A program made the translations under genes and the position numbers. From positions 1 through 28,961 of IMG/VR virus record IMGVR_UViG_3300030061_001073: a DNA stretch of 28,961 nt, one strand, 5' to 3'. The notes beneath the pieces are model-generated. The model saw nothing but the letters and a program-made list of their open reading frames with translations, ran no database searches and was not told the DNA's origin. The DNA is from a virus. Of the stretch, positions 580 to 18,110 are shown one piece after another. Position 1 is the first letter of the stretch, and each line of letters starts with the position of its first letter.

Positions 580-867
580 ATGACGTTTTTATACACCAGT
601 AGAGATTTTACCTCTACTACACGACCTGATCAAAGAATGATCAACCTTTGGAAACATATTACCGAAAAGAAAAACTGGAGAATAGTACAGTTACCAAATG
701 GATTTTTACAAACTGAATACTTACATCCGGACGAAGACGAGTGGATAGACGTAACAAGACGTGAAACTATTGCCGGTGCTGAACAAGCAATAGATGCATC
801 GATAGAACACTATGCTAAAAAACTTGAGTTCTTACAAGGACCCAAAGTTGTTAAAACATTCGAGTAA
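580..867 (+). CDS. Hypothetical protein, 95 aa
   Basis: A soluble 95-residue protein, not recognised. It is rich in aromatic and acidic residues (TEYLHPDEDEWIDVTRRE near residues 47-64), followed by a helical C-terminal half (AEQAIDASIEHYAKKLEFL). It has no signal peptide or membrane segment. The start is the ATG after the A-rich leader AAAAACCAAAACA, as for its neighbours. It stands between the fibre end and the chaperonin pair, separated from groEL by 26 bases, so it may be co-transcribed with groEL-groES. No function is assigned. Confidence 0.75.
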   Translation: MTFLYTSRDFTSTTRPDQRMINLWKHITEKKNWRIVQLPNGFLQTEYLHPDEDEWIDVTRRETIAGAEQAIDASIEHYAKKLEFLQGPKVVKTFE

Positions 868-893: not shown

Positions 894-2432
894 ATGAACG
901 AAACAATAGTTAAGCATCTAAACTTCGGTGAAGATGCCAAAGCCGCTGTGTTTAGCGGTATAGATAAACTCACACAAGCTGTTAGCTCTACGCTTGGAGC
1001 TAGCGGCAAGTGTGTTATCTTAGAAGATACAAATGGAAACCCTAAGATAACTAAAGATGGTGTAACTGTAGCAGATTCAGTTATATTATTAGACCCAGTA
1101 GAAAACATGGGGGCAAGGCTTTTAAAAGAAGCAGCTAGAAAAACTGTAACAGAAGCAGGTGATGGCACAACAACAGCAACAGTACTGGCACATGCTATAC
1201 TGCTAGAAGCCGACAAGCATAAAGATTTAAACTCAAGAGATTTAAAACAAGGAATTAACTTGGCTGTAGACAAAGTAGTGCAATACCTTGAGAAACATTC
1301 CTCAGAAGTAAAAGGAGATGTAATTGAACAAGTAGCTACTATATCAGCCAATAATGACCGTGAGTTAGGCCAACTCATTGGTCAAGCATTTAGGTCAGTT
1401 GATGAAACAGGTATAGTTATAATGGAAACACATGACTTACCAGAAACAACTGTAGAAAGCATTGAAGGAGTACAATATGAAAAAGGTTTAATTAATAGCC
1501 ATTTTATTACTAACAAAGAAAATGGTACATCAGAACTTGAAGAACCATTAGTGCTCATTGTAGAAAGTCAAGTAGATAACATACGTAAGATACAAAGTGT
1601 ACTAGAATATGTTATTAAAAACAATAAAGCTTTATTTATTATAGCAGATGTAGAGCCGCAAGTTATGACTGCGCTAGCTATGAATAAAACTAAAGGTAAT
1701 ATTAAAATCAACATTGTAGATGCTCCACACTTTGGCGCTAATAAAAAAGACACATTAGATGATTTAGCAATGTTAACTGGTGCTACTGTTATCAACGAGG
1801 ATTTAGGCGATGATATGGATTTAATACAACCAGAACATTTAGGTGAATGCTTAAAGGTTGTAACTAACAAAGCAGAGAGTATAATCCAAGTAGAAGAAAT
1901 ACCAGAAGTTGTAGAAGAACTAATTAAAAATATTCAAGCAAAGATTAAAAACCAACCTAATCCTAATTTAGTTATAAACTATGAAAAAAGATTAGCTAGA
2001 TTGTCAGCTAAGGTTGCAATCGTTAGAGTTGGTGCTAATTCAGAGGTTGAACTAAAAGAAAAAAGAGATCGTGTTGAAGATGCTATATGCGCTACAAAAG
2101 CCGCGATCAAAGAAGGAATAGTGCCAGGAGGAGGTATAGCTTTGCTCAATGCAGCAAGTAGTGTTACACCTAGGTCTGTGTCAGAACAAGTTTTATTAGA
2201 TGCTATTAAAGCACCTTATAGAACAATACTAGAAAATGCTGGTATAGAAGACTACGAAGTTCCAAAAGTAAAAGGAAGAGGATTAAATGTGGTTACAGGG
2301 AAAACGGTAAATATGGTAAAGTCCGGAATAATAGATCCCTTGCTAGTTACTAAAAGTGCACTAAGGAACGCGGCTTCAGTAGCGACTACTATTTTATCTA
2401 CAGATTGTGTCATTAATAACTTAAGGGCATGA
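894..2432 (+). CDS. groEL: GroEL-type chaperonin (phage-encoded, 60 kDa class)
   Basis: A 512-residue group I chaperonin that would form the ATP-driven folding cage. The three ATP-site aspartates of E. coli GroEL (D52, D87, D398) are matched by D55 in ITKDGVTVA, D90 in AGDGTTTATVL and D396 in RVEDAICATKAAIKEG. The PGGGIALLNAA motif (411-421) and a C-terminal equatorial segment GIIDPLLVTKSALRNAASVA (478-497) are also present. It is shorter than the usual 545-550 residues and ends in CVINNLRA without the flexible Gly-Gly-Met tail that lines the cavity floor in bacterial GroEL. The stop overlaps the groES start by four bases (ATGA), implying coupled translation. Gene order groEL-groES is the reverse of the common bacterial operon. 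Phage GroELs are known in some large phages and in virioplankton; a role in folding capsid or fibre proteins is inferred. Confidence 0.96.
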   Translation: MNETIVKHLNFGEDAKAAVFSGIDKLTQAVSSTLGASGKCVILEDTNGNPKITKDGVTVADSVILLDPVENMGARLLKEAARKTVTEAGDGTTTATVLAHAILLEADKHKDLNSRDLKQGINLAVDKVVQYLEKHSSEVKGDVIEQVATISANNDRELGQLIGQAFRSVDETGIVIMETHDLPETTVESIEGVQYEKGLINSHFITNKENGTSELEEPLVLIVESQVDNIRKIQSVLEYVIKNNKALFIIADVEPQVMTALAMNKTKGNIKINIVDAPHFGANKKDTLDDLAMLTGATVINEDLGDDMDLIQPEHLGECLKVVTNKAESIIQVEEIPEVVEELIKNIQAKIKNQPNPNLVINYEKRLARLSAKVAIVRVGANSEVELKEKRDRVEDAICATKAAIKEGIVPGGGIALLNAASSVTPRSVSEQVLLDAIKAPYRTILENAGIEDYEVPKVKGRGLNVVTGKTVNMVKSGIIDPLLVTKSALRNAASVATTILSTDCVINNLRA

Positions 2433-2689
2433 AAGCAATTGGAAAAAATATAGTGGTGTTACCAGTAAAAGAAACTGAAACAAGAACAAAAGGTGGGTTG
2501 CTATTAGCAGAAGCCCACCGTGAAGATATAAGATACCGCATGGCTAAGGTTGTTACAATAGGAGACGCTGTAGCTGGATTAAAAGCTAATGACACTATTT
2601 ATTATGATAGACACGCTGGGTTTGGTATAGAAATAAAAAACGAAAAACTTACAATAATAAAAGAAGGCGATGTAGTAGTCGTCTTGTAA
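2429..2689 (+). CDS. groES: GroES-type co-chaperonin
   Basis: An 86-residue lid protein for GroEL. The N-terminal strand IGKNIVVLPVKETETRTKGG leads into a mobile loop whose binding tip G22-G23-L24-L25-L26 matches the GGIVL tip of E. coli GroES. The core strands follow (AKVVTIGD, NDTIYYDRHAGFGIEI, KLTIIKEGDVVVVL). It is about 11 residues shorter than E. coli GroES. The loss falls between TIGD and KANDTI, where the roof beta-hairpin of the dome normally sits; phage T4 gp31 also lacks this hairpin (family knowledge). The start codon overlaps the groEL stop by four bases, so the two proteins should be made together. Confidence 0.93.
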   Translation: MKAIGKNIVVLPVKETETRTKGGLLLAEAHREDIRYRMAKVVTIGDAVAGLKANDTIYYDRHAGFGIEIKNEKLTIIKEGDVVVVL

Positions 2690-10664: not shown

Positions 10665-13600
10665 ATGGCAACACAGTGGATATCACCAACATGGCGAATG
10701 CCTGAAAATAGCAATCAGAGTAAAGTAGATAACTATAGTTTAGATTTTGCTGGTTCAGCTAAAATAGAATACGCAACACCTGTTGATTTAGGAGTTGTAT
10801 CTACTTTTTCATTTTGGATGAATATTGATACAGGCACAACAGGAGCTTTATTTGGTAATACCTTACTTGGTACTTATGAATATATTGTTTATTATTCAGG
10901 TTCTGCATTTTATTTTAAAATAGCTGGTGCATACGCAGATTTTCCCAATGCTGCTACGGCTATAAGCACAGGTCAATGGCATCACGTTGCTTTTGTTAGG
11001 CCATCAGAAAACGAAGTAAAATGTTATATTGATTCTGTATTGACTGATACTATAACTTCGTGGACTGGTACACCAGGTTCAAATCCTATAAAGTTTGACT
11101 TAATTGGTTCAAGACCAGGAGGAGGTTTAGCCTATAGCGGTAAAATAGGACAAATAGCAGGATTTGATTCTGCTCTTACATCTGATCAAGTAACTGCTTT
11201 ATACAACTCCGGTACTCCAGTAAATCCTATGGCTTTATCACCGCTTCCAATAGCTTATTATCCTTTAGGTGGAGGATCAACCGGTGATGCTGCTGTATCA
11301 TCTCCAGCTACTTTAACAGTTCCAAACGATTCAGTGCCAGATGCAACTGTTTTTGATTTTGGAGGTGTAGACGATCAAATAGAATTACCTTCTAATTTTG
11401 TAGCTGCCGGTGAATTTACTTTATCTTTATGGATTAACCCTGATAATGTAATTGATAACAACTTTTTAGGCAATGGAAGTTCTTCAAGTAATTGGTTACA
11501 AATTAAAACAGCATCACAATTAAAAGTAAAAGTATTAAGCACAGTATTAGTATTTAACGAAAGTGGTGGTAATAATTTAACTGCATCTGCTTGGAATCAT
11601 ATTTTAATATATAGAGACGCAAGCAATGATGTGGGTGTATATGTAAATGGACAAACTTTTGGAAGCACTAATAATAATACTAGTACTTTAACTTTAAGTA
11701 CAATAGGTAGAGCAACATCAATATTTTTTGAAGGTGACATAAGTAACACTGCTTTTTGGACCTCAGACCAATCTGCTAACATAGCCACTATATATAATAA
11801 TGGAATTCCTGCAGATATTTCTAGTTTATCACCTGCAATCTGGTATAAACTAAATGTTGATACTAGTAATTGGGATCTAACATCAACAAGTTGGAGTATA
11901 ACTAAAATAGGTAGTCCATATTACAATGGTGCCTCTGATGGAGCTTATGCTCAAAATGGAGTATTAAGAAGTCAAGATACTAATTCTTATACTATAGCTT
12001 CTGGTGATTATTTTCAATGGAATTCACCTACTATATATACTTCGGGTAGTGATATAGTTTTATCTTCTTCTGGAGGAGAGGCTAATGGTCAAACCTCAGG
12101 TGTAGAAGTTATATACCAATATAATATAGACAATACTAGTTGGACAACTTGGCATCAACACACCGACACTGGTACCACTGATCAAGCATATGCTGTTCCA
12201 AGCACATCACCTTTAACGGTTTCTAGTAATATAAAAATTAGAGTACAATTAGCAGGTGGACCTAATAATAATTCTTTTGTAGATGTTTCAGATATAAATA
12301 TAACTGGTGGAACTTCAAGCTATAGCGAAGACTTCAGCAATGTTACGAAATACGGTTGGTTTGGAGGAAGTGAAACTGCTAATCCAACAACTACTGCATG
12401 GATTATTACAGATTCAAGTGGTAACAAAAACACTGGCACGAGTTCAGGTATGACTACAGCAAATCTAGTAACATCTGATTTAACTCGTAGTATTCCGTAT
12501 AGTAGTTATAGTATGGTGTTTGACGGATTGAACGATTATGTTTCTTCCGACAGCGTACCATCTCAATTAAATACTGTTAGTCTTTCTATATGGGTTAAAA
12601 GAAATGGTAATCAAAATACATCAGCAGGAGTTTTTGGTGTAAGAAATGCTGGTGTTGGCAGTGGAAACTTTGGTGTTTGCTGGGATTTAGCATTTAATAC
12701 AACTACTAACAAAATTGAATTTAGAATCGGAGATACTGGGTATAATACTGTAATTCAAGATTCTGCTATGACAGACAATGCTTGGACCCACGTTGTTGGA
12801 ATTGCAGATGGAGCAAATATGTTTTTATATATAAATGGAGTAAAACAAACAGATACAGACACATATTCAACTCCAATAGAAACACCAACAAATAAAATAT
12901 TTATAGGCGCACAAGGCGATATACCAACTACTTATGATTTTACTGGGAATCTTTCAAATGCAGCAGTGTTTAATAAAAGTTTATCTGAAGATGAAATATT
13001 AACTATATATAATGGAGGTGTTCCAAATAGTATCTCTAGTTTATCACCAATTAATTGGTGGAGTTTAGCAGGTGACAGTTATTACAATGGAACAAATTGG
13101 ATATGCCCAGACTTAGGTAGTGCAAGCAACAATGGCACTAGCAGCGGGATGGGTGGAACTGAACTAGTAGGTGATGGTCCAGGTTCTACAGCAAATGGAG
13201 TAGCAACAAGTATGGATATTCCAGTAAACTTAGAAGGTAACGCACCTAATTCTACAAGTAATGCTTTTTCAATAAATATGGATCCAACAGACAGAGTAGA
13301 ATATGACTTAGAAGCTAAAGCTTTTATCAATGCTGCTGGAATAACTGATGCTACACAACAACTAGCAATTAAAACATTAGTTAGTTCATTACAAAGTAAC
13401 AATCTTTGGACTAATATGAAAGCTATTTACCCTATGGTTGGCGGAACTTCAACAACTCATATGTATAACTTAAAAGATCCACAAGATACTGACGCTGCGT
13501 TTAGGTTAACTTTTGAAGGAGGTTGGACTCATTCAACTACTGGCGCTACACCTAATGGAACAAACGGAAGAGCAAATAGTCATCTTGTACCTAATACGGA

Positions 13601-14048
13601 TATTAGTAGTGTAGACGCAATGTCATATGGGTACTATTCAAGAGATACATCTGGTGCTAACGGACTTTATGATATGGGTGCTTATCAAGTTGGAGCAGTA
13701 TCTTTAATGCTAATTAGATTTGGTAATAAATTTTATTATTCTATAAATCAAGCTAATTACGAAACACCAGCAAGTACGGCTACTTCTGGATTATTTGTAG
13801 CTAATAGATCTGGAGCAAGTGCTATAGAAGGCTATATAAACGGCTCAGTATTTGACACAGGTACAGAATCTTCTACAAGTCTTCCTTCAAACGATATGGG
13901 AGTAGGTGGTATTTATGGAACTGGTGGTTATGGTACTAGAGAATGTGCATTCGCTTTTGTATATAATGGATCTTTAGATGCAACTCAAAATTCAAATTTA
14001 TACAATGCTGTTCAAGCATTTAACACAACTTTAGGTAGACAAGTATGA
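10665..14048 (+). CDS. Large multi-LamG receptor-binding fibre protein, 1127 aa
   Basis: Three LamG-like domains are visible at about residues 24-180 (YSLDFAGSAKIEYA), 229-378 (VFDFGGVDDQIELP) and 615-782 (YSMVFDGLNDYVSSD). Each ends in a D(I/A)xxF(D/N)xxLxxxQ/ExxxxYN strand and a linker such as ADISSLSPAIWYKL or NSISSLSPINWWSL. Between domains 2 and 3 an extra beta-rich segment (about 396-563, with QYNIDNTSWTTWHQHTDTGT) interrupts the linker. Residues 871-1127 form a separate C-terminal domain starting DPTDRVEYDLEAKAFINAAG. LamG domains commonly bind glycans, so host-surface polysaccharide recognition is the likely job. It overlaps the following small gene by four bases. Confidence 0.82.
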   Translation: MATQWISPTWRMPENSNQSKVDNYSLDFAGSAKIEYATPVDLGVVSTFSFWMNIDTGTTGALFGNTLLGTYEYIVYYSGSAFYFKIAGAYADFPNAATAISTGQWHHVAFVRPSENEVKCYIDSVLTDTITSWTGTPGSNPIKFDLIGSRPGGGLAYSGKIGQIAGFDSALTSDQVTALYNSGTPVNPMALSPLPIAYYPLGGGSTGDAAVSSPATLTVPNDSVPDATVFDFGGVDDQIELPSNFVAAGEFTLSLWINPDNVIDNNFLGNGSSSSNWLQIKTASQLKVKVLSTVLVFNESGGNNLTASAWNHILIYRDASNDVGVYVNGQTFGSTNNNTSTLTLSTIGRATSIFFEGDISNTAFWTSDQSANIATIYNNGIPADISSLSPAIWYKLNVDTSNWDLTSTSWSITKIGSPYYNGASDGAYAQNGVLRSQDTNSYTIASGDYFQWNSPTIYTSGSDIVLSSSGGEANGQTSGVEVIYQYNIDNTSWTTWHQHTDTGTTDQAYAVPSTSPLTVSSNIKIRVQLAGGPNNNSFVDVSDINITGGTSSYSEDFSNVTKYGWFGGSETANPTTTAWIITDSSGNKNTGTSSGMTTANLVTSDLTRSIPYSSYSMVFDGLNDYVSSDSVPSQLNTVSLSIWVKRNGNQNTSAGVFGVRNAGVGSGNFGVCWDLAFNTTTNKIEFRIGDTGYNTVIQDSAMTDNAWTHVVGIADGANMFLYINGVKQTDTDTYSTPIETPTNKIFIGAQGDIPTTYDFTGNLSNAAVFNKSLSEDEILTIYNGGVPNSISSLSPINWWSLAGDSYYNGTNWICPDLGSASNNGTSSGMGGTELVGDGPGSTANGVATSMDIPVNLEGNAPNSTSNAFSINMDPTDRVEYDLEAKAFINAAGITDATQQLAIKTLVSSLQSNNLWTNMKAIYPMVGGTSTTHMYNLKDPQDTDAAFRLTFEGGWTHSTTGATPNGTNGRANSHLVPNTDISSVDAMSYGYYSRDTSGANGLYDMGAYQVGAVSLMLIRFGNKFYYSINQANYETPASTATSGLFVANRSGASAIEGYINGSVFDTGTESSTSLPSNDMGVGGIYGTGGYGTRECAFAFVYNGSLDATQNSNLYNAVQAFNTTLGRQV

Positions 14049-14843: not shown

Positions 14844-15063
14844 TGTTATTCGTAAAATAAGTATTGGAGCAGATTATAAAAATGAAGCTATGCACTACTC
14901 CGTAGGCCAATCGGTTTACGGAGGTCATAGCATTTCTAATATACTGTTTGAAGAAGAAGACAATTCTTACAATATATTCATAACTAAAGAAGACGAAGTA
15001 TTGCCTTGGAAAAAGTTTAATTCTAATATGGCAATATCTGTCGAGTATGATCTTCAGTACTAA
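14836..15063 (+). CDS. Hypothetical protein, 75 aa
   Basis: I choose ATG 14836; an in-frame TTG at 14830 adds only two residues. The protein starts MSNVIRKISIGADYKNEAMH and has alternating strands (ISNILFEEEDNSYNIFITKE, LPWKKFNSNMAISVEYDLQY), suggesting a small beta-barrel-like fold. It overlaps the coiled-coil gene by eight bases and the tandem GroES-like gene by one (TAATG), so it is part of that expression unit. Function unknown. Confidence 0.7.
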   Translation: MSNVIRKISIGADYKNEAMHYSVGQSVYGGHSISNILFEEEDNSYNIFITKEDEVLPWKKFNSNMAISVEYDLQY

Positions 15064-15668
15064 TGGAAAGTTTATACCGATTTATCATAAAGCCAAAAGG
15101 TGAACGTTATGATAATGAAAAAAAAGTAGGTGACAAAAGCCTTATAACTAATACTCGTATTGAAACATTCCAGTCTGTTAGTAAGAAGGCAATTGTTATA
15201 GCTTTACCTAAAGCTTATAAAACCGATATAAAAGTAGGTGATGAAGTAATCATACACCACAATGTGTTTCGTAGGTTTTATGACATGAAAGGTAAAGAGA
15301 AGAACTCTGCATCATTTTTTAAGGATGATTTATTCTTTTGTGATATAGAACAAATATACCTTTATAACCGCAATGACAAATGGATATGTAACCTAAACTA
15401 TTGCTTTGTCCACCCTGTTGCATCTCTGGATGAGTTTAGTACATTAAAAGAAGAACCTCTTCTTGGTATAATAAAATATAGTAATAAGTCCTTAGAAGCG
15501 CTAGGAATCACTCCTGGAACCTTAATAACGTTTACACCCAACTCTGAATTTGAGTTTATAGTCGGTGATGAACGTTTATATTGTATGAAATCAAATGATA
15601 TAGCATTAATGCATGACTACGAAGAAGATAAAGTTAAATATAATCCAAGCTGGGCACAAAGCAGTTGA
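15063..15668 (+). CDS. Tandem GroES-like protein, putative second co-chaperonin
   Basis: 201 residues that read as two GroES-type beta-barrels. Domain 1 (about 5-100): first strand YRFIIKPKGE, a 20-residue polar loop (about 20-39) where GroES has its mobile loop, then SKKAIVIALPKAYKTDIKVG and DEVIIHHNV, which match the GxVxAVG...VKVGDxVIF core, and closing strand FFCDIEQIYLY. Domain 2 (about 113-185): YCFVHPVA, EPLLGIIKYSNKSLEALGIT, PGTLITFTPNSEFEFIVGDE and RLYCMKSNDIALM repeat the same order with a shortened loop. Phage lid proteins such as T4 gp31 diverge strongly from GroES, so a capsid-folding role is plausible. Its location just before the terminase genes fits head assembly. Its last 56 bases overlap the next gene. 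Fold assignment is by pattern only. Confidence 0.6.
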   Translation: MESLYRFIIKPKGERYDNEKKVGDKSLITNTRIETFQSVSKKAIVIALPKAYKTDIKVGDEVIIHHNVFRRFYDMKGKEKNSASFFKDDLFFCDIEQIYLYNRNDKWICNLNYCFVHPVASLDEFSTLKEEPLLGIIKYSNKSLEALGITPGTLITFTPNSEFEFIVGDERLYCMKSNDIALMHDYEEDKVKYNPSWAQSS

Positions 15669-15891
15669 GGAATTAATTAAGATCGCTAGAGAACCTATTG
15701 TAGATTCAGAAGATGATATATCTGCAGATAGATTAAAGAATGCAGCAGCAACAAAGAAATTAGCTATTTTCGATGCGTTTGAAATATTAACGCGCATCGA
15801 GAATGAAAAGGAAATGTTAGAGGATAAACCTAAAGAAGAAAAAAAGGAAGAAAAAGCTTTTAAAGGTTTTGCGGAAAGGAGAAGTAAATAA
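15613..15891 (+). CDS. Candidate small terminase subunit, 92 aa
   Basis: A helical 92-residue protein (IIQAGHKAVEELIKIARE, SADRLKNAAATKKLAIFDAF, EILTRIENEKEMLED) with a Lys/Glu-rich tail ending FAERRSK. It lies directly upstream of the large terminase gene and overlaps it by one base, the usual place of the small subunit that recognises DNA and regulates packaging. The length is short for a small terminase and no HTH is obvious. The ATG start at 15613 lies 56 bases inside the previous gene; no later in-frame ATG would preserve the helical core. Confidence 0.6.
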   Translation: MTTKKIKLNIIQAGHKAVEELIKIAREPIVDSEDDISADRLKNAAATKKLAIFDAFEILTRIENEKEMLEDKPKEEKKEEKAFKGFAERRSK

Positions 15892-18110
15892 TGTACGAAC
15901 AAACATTATATACAATATTAAAAGATTATATCAATCCTAAAATACTTAAAAAAAACAATAGGTATAAAAAATGGGAGTATGGGTATAATAAAGAATATGA
16001 TTTTGTAGTTATAAGTAAAGACGGAACTATTGGACAGATATACGAGATTCAAGGTCTCAAAGTTGCAATACCAGAAGAGCATGAACCTTTTAAACGAAGC
16101 AAAGATAAAAAGGAACAATACTGGGAAAAACAAGAATATCCAAAAGAATTAAGTAGGATTAAAAGTGTATTTGATTGGGATGAATATCCTGTAGATTTTA
16201 AAGAAAAATGGTTTGATTATATAGATGAAGAGTTCAGAAAAAGAGATGAAGGTTACTGGTTTTATAACAATGGTATTCCTACTTATATTACAGGGTCTCA
16301 TTATATGTACTTGCAATGGTCAAAAATCGACGTTGGAGCCGCAGACTTTAGAGAAGCAAATAGATTATTCTTTATGTTCTGGGAAGCTTGCAAAGCAGAT
16401 AATAGATGCTACGGAATGTGTTACCTTAAAAACAGACGATCTGGTTTTTCATTCATGTCATCAGCCGAGTTGGTTAACCAAGCAACAATATCTAGTAACT
16501 CTAGATTCGGTATCCTTTCTAAAACTGGAGCAGATGCTAAAAAAATGTTTACAGATAAGGTTGTCCCAATATCCATTAACTATCCGTTTTTTTTCAAACC
16601 GATCCAGGATGGTATGGATCGTCCTAAGACCGAACTGGCATATAGAGTCCCAGCTTCAAAACTTACTAGACGTAAACTAGAATCAAACGAACAGCTAAAA
16701 GAACTAGAAGGTCTTGACACAACAATAGACTGGAAAAACACAGGTGATAACTCTTATGATGGTGAAAAGCTAAAAATACTAGCTCATGATGAAAGTGGTA
16801 AATGGGAACGTCCTGATAATATATTAAATAACTGGAGAGTTACAAAAACCACATTAAGACTAGGTTCTAGAATAGTTGGCAAGTGTATGATGGGTTCAAC
16901 TTCAAACGCCTTAGACAAAGGTGGAAACAATTTTAAAAAATTATTTTATGATTCAAGCGTTGAGAGAAGAAATAAGAATGGTCAAACAAGCTCGGGACTC
17001 TATAGTTTATTCATCCCTATGGAATGGTCCTACGAAGGATACATTGATTCTTATGGACTACCTGTCTTCGATACGCCACAAACTCCGGTCATTGGAGTTG
17101 ATGGAGAAAGAATTGACATCGGAGTTATCGAGCACTGGGAAAACGAAGCAGACGGACTTAAACAAGACCAAGACGGATTAAACGAATTTTACAGACAATT
17201 TCCAAGAACTGAGAAACACGCTTTCAGAGATGAAACAAAACAGTCTTTATTTAACTTAGTTAAAATATACGAGCAAATAGATTACAATGAAGAAATACAT
17301 AATGTAGCTTCTGTAACTAGAGGAAGTTTTCAATGGGAAAATGGAATTAAAGATAGTAAAGTAATATTTTATCCAAACAATGATGGGAGATTTTTAATAT
17401 CATGGGTTCCACCTAAAAATCTTCAAAACAGAGTGATTATAAAAAATGGAGTTAAGTATCCTGGAAATGAACACGTTGGAGCTTTTGGTTGTGATAGTTA
17501 TGATATTAGCGGTACTGTGGATGGTAAAGGTTCTAATGGAGCACTTCATGGATTAACTAAATTTTCAATGGAAGATGCGCCACCAAACCACTTTTTTTTA
17601 GAATATATATCTAGACCACAAACAGCAGAAACATTCTTTGAAGATGTTCTTATGTCATTAGTATTTTATGGAATGCCATTGTTATGTGAAAATAATAAAC
17701 CAAGACTTTTATACTATTTAAAGCGTAGAGGTTATAGAGGATTTTCAATGAATCGTCCTGATAAAGTTTGGAATAAATTATCTACTGCAGAAAAAGAAGT
17801 TGGTGGTATACCTAATTCTAGTGAAGATATTAAACAAGCACACGCCGCGGCTATTGAAACGTATATAGAAGATTATGTAGGATTTAAAGGCGATGACTAT
17901 GGAGATATGTATATGCAACGCACTTTAGAAGATTGGGCTAAGTTTAATATTAATAATAGAACTAAGCATGATGCTTCAATTAGTTCTGGACTTGCTATTA
18001 TGGCTTGTAATAAAAATAAGTATAAACCTAATAAAGACACTGTAAGAACTAAAGTTAATTTAGGTTTTAAAAAATATGATAATAAAGGATCAATTTCAAA
18101 AATAATATAA
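15891..18110 (+). CDS. terL: Terminase large subunit
   Basis: 739-residue DNA-packaging motor. The ATPase motif KNRRSGFS (180-187) is a deviant Walker A with the lysine at the front, the layout of phage lambda gpA (KSARVGYS). Walker B is LKILAHDES, with D300 and E301. The coupling motif is MMGSTSNA (333-340). The nuclease domain begins with AFGCDSYDIS, whose D535 would be the first metal-binding acid of an RNase H-like site, with ENNKPRLLYYLKRRG further on. The N-terminal 150 residues are an extra lysine- and aromatic-rich region. It overlaps the candidate small subunit by one base and is followed after two stop codons (TAATAG) by the portal gene. G+C drops from about 45% near 17100 to below 30% near 17940. 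Confidence 0.92.
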   Translation: MYEQTLYTILKDYINPKILKKNNRYKKWEYGYNKEYDFVVISKDGTIGQIYEIQGLKVAIPEEHEPFKRSKDKKEQYWEKQEYPKELSRIKSVFDWDEYPVDFKEKWFDYIDEEFRKRDEGYWFYNNGIPTYITGSHYMYLQWSKIDVGAADFREANRLFFMFWEACKADNRCYGMCYLKNRRSGFSFMSSAELVNQATISSNSRFGILSKTGADAKKMFTDKVVPISINYPFFFKPIQDGMDRPKTELAYRVPASKLTRRKLESNEQLKELEGLDTTIDWKNTGDNSYDGEKLKILAHDESGKWERPDNILNNWRVTKTTLRLGSRIVGKCMMGSTSNALDKGGNNFKKLFYDSSVERRNKNGQTSSGLYSLFIPMEWSYEGYIDSYGLPVFDTPQTPVIGVDGERIDIGVIEHWENEADGLKQDQDGLNEFYRQFPRTEKHAFRDETKQSLFNLVKIYEQIDYNEEIHNVASVTRGSFQWENGIKDSKVIFYPNNDGRFLISWVPPKNLQNRVIIKNGVKYPGNEHVGAFGCDSYDISGTVDGKGSNGALHGLTKFSMEDAPPNHFFLEYISRPQTAETFFEDVLMSLVFYGMPLLCENNKPRLLYYLKRRGYRGFSMNRPDKVWNKLSTAEKEVGGIPNSSEDIKQAHAAAIETYIEDYVGFKGDDYGDMYMQRTLEDWAKFNINNRTKHDASISSGLAIMACNKNKYKPNKDTVRTKVNLGFKKYDNKGSISKII

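Follow-up and report, generated by a model that had tools for sequence, protein, structure and literature searches.

We show here that a stretch of viral DNA carries what is very probably a functional group I chaperonin operon, long resident in a short-tailed phage that itself probably infects a Bacteroidota host. The stretch, hereafter the window, spans a whole IMG/VR record (28,961 bases), and because genes run off both its ends it is probably a genome fragment. On its plus strand groEL (894..2432, 512 aa) comes first and groES (2429..2689, 86 aa) starts on the groEL stop codon, the two open reading frames sharing the ATGA at 2429..2432 (plus strand), as a preliminary description of this DNA had stated. 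Both frames are intact. The groEL product matches Pfam Cpn60_TCP1 (E 5e-55), with PF00118 covering 1-487 of 490 at 187.5 bits against a cut-off of 34.3, and PHROG groEL (E 1.5e-133); the groES product matches Pfam Cpn10 (E 3.5e-11, over the Pfam cut-off) and PHROG groES (E 1.6e-12). The AF2 model of GroEL (pLDDT 85.9) matches GroEL entries at a TM of about 0.89, and the best matches of the GroES model (pLDDT 87.6) are GroES folds. Compared with relatives at 74-79% identity, groEL shows a dN of 0.14-0.19 and a dS of about 0.9-1.2, and the resulting dN/dS of about 0.13-0.17 indicates that the gene is under purifying selection.

The phage lineage can be followed by its terminase large subunit (15891..18110, plus strand; PHROG terminase), which shares 63% identity with its MW202828 counterpart and 45% with those of the Flavobacterium elemo podophages, the remaining matches being from Cellulophaga, Tenacibaculum and Maribacter phages. 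MW202828 is an uncultured podovirus with a 60.9-kb circular genome from Manatee Spring, and its layout, including that of the late genes, resembles the window: groEL-groES is followed by lysis and unknown genes, the terminase, the portal and structural genes. Where the hosts of these terminase relatives are known, all are Flavobacteriia, from which we infer that the window likely comes from a marine relative of phages infecting Flavobacteriia and that its host likely belongs to the Bacteroidota. A tRNA scan and an Rfam scan of the whole window were both empty. The first gene of the window, of which the 3' end is present (2-502), encodes a structural or tail-spike-like protein rich in repeats (PHROG 6002 and 4636). 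At 10665-14048 lies the gene for a virion protein, as is likely, of 1127 aa that contains three concanavalin-A-like lectin (Laminin_G_3) domains and would serve in host recognition or glycan binding.

The order of the two chaperonin genes is shared well beyond the window. Searching IMG/VR with GroEL and GroES of the window, and adding the window's own locus, we obtained 160 window-clade loci on about 145 contigs; because window-like sequences served as queries, the figures describe the sampled clades rather than all viruses. In the window clade groEL precedes groES in 159/159 loci with both genes, and in 157 of them the two are adjacent. The same order was found in all 13 such loci of the elemo clade and in 78/78 of the MW202828 clade. 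In contrast, bacterial operons run groES-groEL, as had been assumed: this was the order in 78/78 bacterial loci with detectable groES, drawn from those retained because their GroEL came closest to that of the window. A search for bacterial operons with the reversed order found none among these 78 loci and thus did not refute long residence. Given that groEL-groES is fixed in three viral clades, the reversed order is a trait of the whole phage lineage, part of which (the elemo phages) is cultured and annotated. The order supports long residence, but as a lineage trait it is less surprising than the preliminary description implied. It has probably been described already, and Marine et al. 2017 (ISME J 11:2479) reportedly linked the order of the large and small subunit genes to GroEL phylogeny in the virioplankton. 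Other phage pairs run groES-groEL, namely those of immuto, Calle_2 and phi38:1, with one gene between, and those of SJC03 and MT835992, and in the Vibrio phages YC, Va1 and 1.244 groEL is present with no groES detected nearby.

Although groES starting within the groEL stop codon had also drawn attention, the overlap by itself is ordinary in this genome, and only the order of the genes is notable. Nine of the 33 gene junctions that we listed for the window overlap, three by exactly 4 bases, and in nearly all relatives groEL and groES overlap by 1-28 bases, mostly 17, 4, 1, 20 or 23. We considered whether the 4 shared bases are a special signal and rejected this, since like overlaps occur throughout the window and relatives vary (1, 4, 14, 17, 20, 23 bases). 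Unlike in the window, groEL and groES of the MW202828 clade are more than 150 bases apart in 54 of 78 loci, with other genes inserted between them in the loci inspected, and the frequent separation of these pairs indicates that tight coupling is not required. The inserted cargo is variable (loci L268, L291, L293, L310, L336 and L343); it includes a protein of 280 aa (MKHSLHSSFYPHID...) and a family of 82-95-aa proteins that recurs and contains NI.GAY.GE.TP.

The pair had been proposed to be a long-resident viral chaperonin rather than a fresh host capture, and both halves of this proposal are supported. We looked for a position of the GroEL inside one bacterial genus at high identity, but the closest cellular GroEL among the matches listed (GTDB species genomes) is only 43% identical. 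In a mixture-model tree of bacterial and viral GroELs, from which crAss cr111_1 and Vibrio YC (very divergent, with long branches) and the jumbo-phage GroELs were left out, the window, MW202828 and elemo clades are each supported at 100/100, and the branch separating the window clade from the set of all sampled bacteria receives 100/97. An AU test rejects joining the window clade to the Flavobacteriaceae GroEL used as representative (p 0.008). Long residence also fits the length of the branches, 1.1-1.5 changes per site, that carry the three viral clades with the reversed order. Phages do capture chaperonins recently: the GroELs of SJC03 and LR756501 fall inside the Bacteroidota, as recent captures would, and SJC03 keeps the groES-groEL order. 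For the window, however, it is extremely improbable that a groE operon was freshly captured from the host and its gene order recently rearranged, the order being fixed across about 145 related viral contigs, and host capture was rejected on identity, gene order and tree together.

Whether the three groEL-groES clades inherited one pair is a separate matter. They group together at 94/90 in the mixture-model tree, albeit on long branches (1.1-1.5 changes per site), so that long-branch attraction may have joined clades that gained reversed pairs independently. The AU test only just rejects placing the three viral clades with the Bacteroidota (p 0.048), and although the window and MW202828 share 63% identity in the terminase, they share only 34% in GroEL, a gap that could reflect replacement in one lineage. 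Still, we regard such convergence as unlikely: besides the support under the mixture model, the GroES proteins of the window and MW202828 clades share an MK-IGK start and an RY segment at 39-47% identity, and the terminases group the same phages. GroEL and GroES distances are strongly correlated when all three clades are compared (r 0.785) but only weakly so inside the window clade (r 0.27); in either case 0/2000 permutations were as high, which is consistent with a long shared history of the two genes. We favor a single lineage of reversed pairs, which the elemo phages and MW202828 share with the window along with the missing Gly-Gly-Met tail, a related terminase and, near the latter, another Cpn10-like protein, even though their GroELs are only 39% (elemo) and 34% (MW202828) identical to that of the window.

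The window proteins are about 40% identical to E. coli GroEL-GroES and share with them the fold, the ATPase residues and the GroES loop, but they differ in gene order, in lacking the Gly-Gly-Met tail and the inter-ring segments, in the apical groove and in having no GroES roof. The catalytic residues noted earlier, D55, D90 and D396, are the counterparts of E. coli D52, D87 and D398. None of them varies among the 148 full-length window-clade GroELs sampled, some of which come from the same contig; the GDGTT motif is also present in the window GroEL. The protein ends in ...VINNLRA, so the reported absence of the Gly-Gly-Met tail is correct, and this tail, encoded in 67/78 bacterial loci, occurs in 0/159 of the window clade. 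In the apical domain Y203 is replaced by H in 133/148 and L234 by Q in 134/148 window-clade sequences, both being positions that bind substrate and GroES in E. coli.

Two equatorial segments are missing. GroEL residues 422-431 (2157..2186, plus strand) form a shortened loop in which E. coli 429-435, including E434, is absent; this segment is 7 residues shorter in 148/148 window-clade GroELs and is retained in bacteria. Residues 451-462 (2244..2279, plus strand) are coil in the model where the helix with E. coli S463/V464 is missing. The S463 column is gapped in 148/148 window-clade sequences and the V464 column in 143/148, the alignment-free spacing from motif to motif around these residues is usually 11-12 residues vs 17-18 in bacteria, and the AF2 model has no helix between 449 and 482. 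In E. coli GroEL, E434 has a role in the ring contacts, and so do the residues changed in the single-ring mutant. In E. coli GroEL and mitochondrial Hsp60, ring-ring contacts come from the S463/V464 region and the helix D loop (PMC7174398). The loss of both segments carrying the E. coli inter-ring contacts suggests that window-clade GroELs may form single or loosely paired rings; this reading is drawn from the deletions alone, and other ring contacts could form. Each of the three clades has its own pattern of equatorial deletions: elemo GroELs mainly show the first (429-435) shortening, and those of the MW202828 clade mainly a slightly shorter second segment. The GroEL of Cellulophaga phage Calle_2 (L164) is also shortened in the S463/V464-helix segment, yet its order is groES-x-groEL, indicating that the deletion does not follow gene order. 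The phage-encoded Cpn60 proteins of the jumbo phages EL, OBP and AR9 likewise differ from E. coli GroEL in their ring-ring contacts and are single-ring or ring-splitting by the literature, although they have no groES annotated beside them and are only about 23-28% identical to the window GroEL over the aligned parts.

The 86-aa GroES has a Cpn10 fold with a GG-hydrophobic mobile loop. Its GGLLL tip, described as kept, lies at residues 22-26, within the mobile loop and following segment (TKGGLLL...REDIRY; 2480..2536, plus strand). Among 50 relatives G23 and R35 are invariant, and T20, L24, L26 and Y36 are conserved in at least 90%; the bacterial PDTAKEKP is absent from the viral GroES. The roof hairpin is also absent, its region (2561..2593, plus strand) being coil at residues 45-55 of the model, and the segment measures 15 residues vs 19 in a Flavobacteriaceae GroES (L174) and 24 in E. 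coli. Roof loss as a feature unique to phage was considered and rejected, the GroES of Sulfurovum (L185) being equally short. T4 gp31 is likewise a phage lid without a roof loop over the dome (PMC6318259). However, gp31 has the longer mobile loop and partners the GroEL of the host, whereas the window phage brings its own GroEL, and the fold match of the window GroES is weaker to gp31 than to bacterial GroES.

The GroES also bears on how the GroEL would work. The chaperonin of phage EL (gp146) has open rings, was unable to refold rhodanese and does not interact with the GroES of E. coli (PMC7185714), and with its altered groove residues the window GroEL might in the same way be an open ATP-driven holdase that is not capped by GroES, the small GroES-like protein having another role. 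We consider this improbable, given that in almost all relatives groEL is adjoined by a gene for a GroES with an intact GG-hydrophobic loop, which varies in step with GroEL across clades, while phage EL is far more divergent and lacks a groES beside its chaperonin gene. A GroES-capped chaperonin thus remains our preferred reading.

A second putative co-chaperonin of 201 aa is encoded near the terminase (15063..15668, plus strand) and matches PHROG_13932, "co-chaperonin GroES" (E 2e-17). Its C-terminal half aligns with bacterial GroES at an hhalign probability of 94.7%, scoring 45.5 vs 17.9 for the best of 40 column shuffles; its N-terminal half aligns over its length, but the score of 22.3 is barely above that of the best shuffle (21.0). 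The protein has no Pfam match, and a comparison of its family with the PDB gave nothing significant. As judged from these profile alignments, it has one clear C-terminal and one possible N-terminal Cpn10 domain; two such domains in one chain would make it a Cpn20-like tandem. In MW202828 and the elemo phages its relatives are likewise encoded close to the terminase, annotated in elemo as chaperonin cpn10, and others occur in Cellulophaga and Maribacter phages. The position of the gene near terminase and portal suggested a role in virion assembly, which for this co-chaperonin we offer as a guess. Directly upstream of groEL lies a conserved companion gene (580..867, plus strand) with homologues in relatives. 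Its 95-aa product has no Pfam or PHROG match and 46 positions conserved in more than 85% of sequences; among the 141 window-clade loci whose upstream sequence could be read, 105 have a homologue ahead of groEL, mostly at a distance of 23-33 bases, and none was detected in elemo or MW202828-clade loci.

Taken together, we propose that groEL would be translated first and groES would follow via the overlap, probably by translational coupling. Heptameric GroEL rings would bind unfolded phage proteins, likely virion proteins, and hydrolyze ATP with the intact D52/D87/D398 set, and the conserved loop residues suggest that the 86-aa GroES caps GroEL through its GGLLL loop. With no Gly-Gly-Met tail, a changed apical groove, a roofless lid and deleted equatorial segments, this would be a specialized machine in which GroEL may work as a single ring or a loosely joined pair. 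The pair would have been acquired long ago, probably once, and then kept by the phage lineage and diverged with it. In a more speculative form, which is doubtful as a whole, a naturally single-ring GroEL in common marine phages would use the small roofless GroES for general cycling and the large two-domain Cpn10 for capsid or portal proteins.

Virioplankton GroEL groups resemble the window in being common marine phage GroELs that are divergent from those of bacteria. Phage chaperonins, notably GroEL in marine Bacteroidetes phages, are already known (PMC5332604, PMC8407431, PMC11590407), and 36 genomes of the "group 2" phages of marine Bacteroidetes carry a GroEL related to that of Cellulophaga phages (PMC5332604). 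Within a limited literature search, we found no description of the ring-contact deletions or of one GroEL with two co-chaperonins.

These observations indicate that a phage lineage has kept and remodeled a complete chaperonin over long evolution and has not merely borrowed a host gene. The need for a second ring has been studied mainly with engineered single-ring GroEL and with mitochondrial Hsp60. If the ring-contact deletions give a single ring that cycles with GroES, these phages would provide a natural test of that need. The second co-chaperonin near the terminase, in turn, would make it possible to test whether chaperonin specificity is tied to virion assembly.
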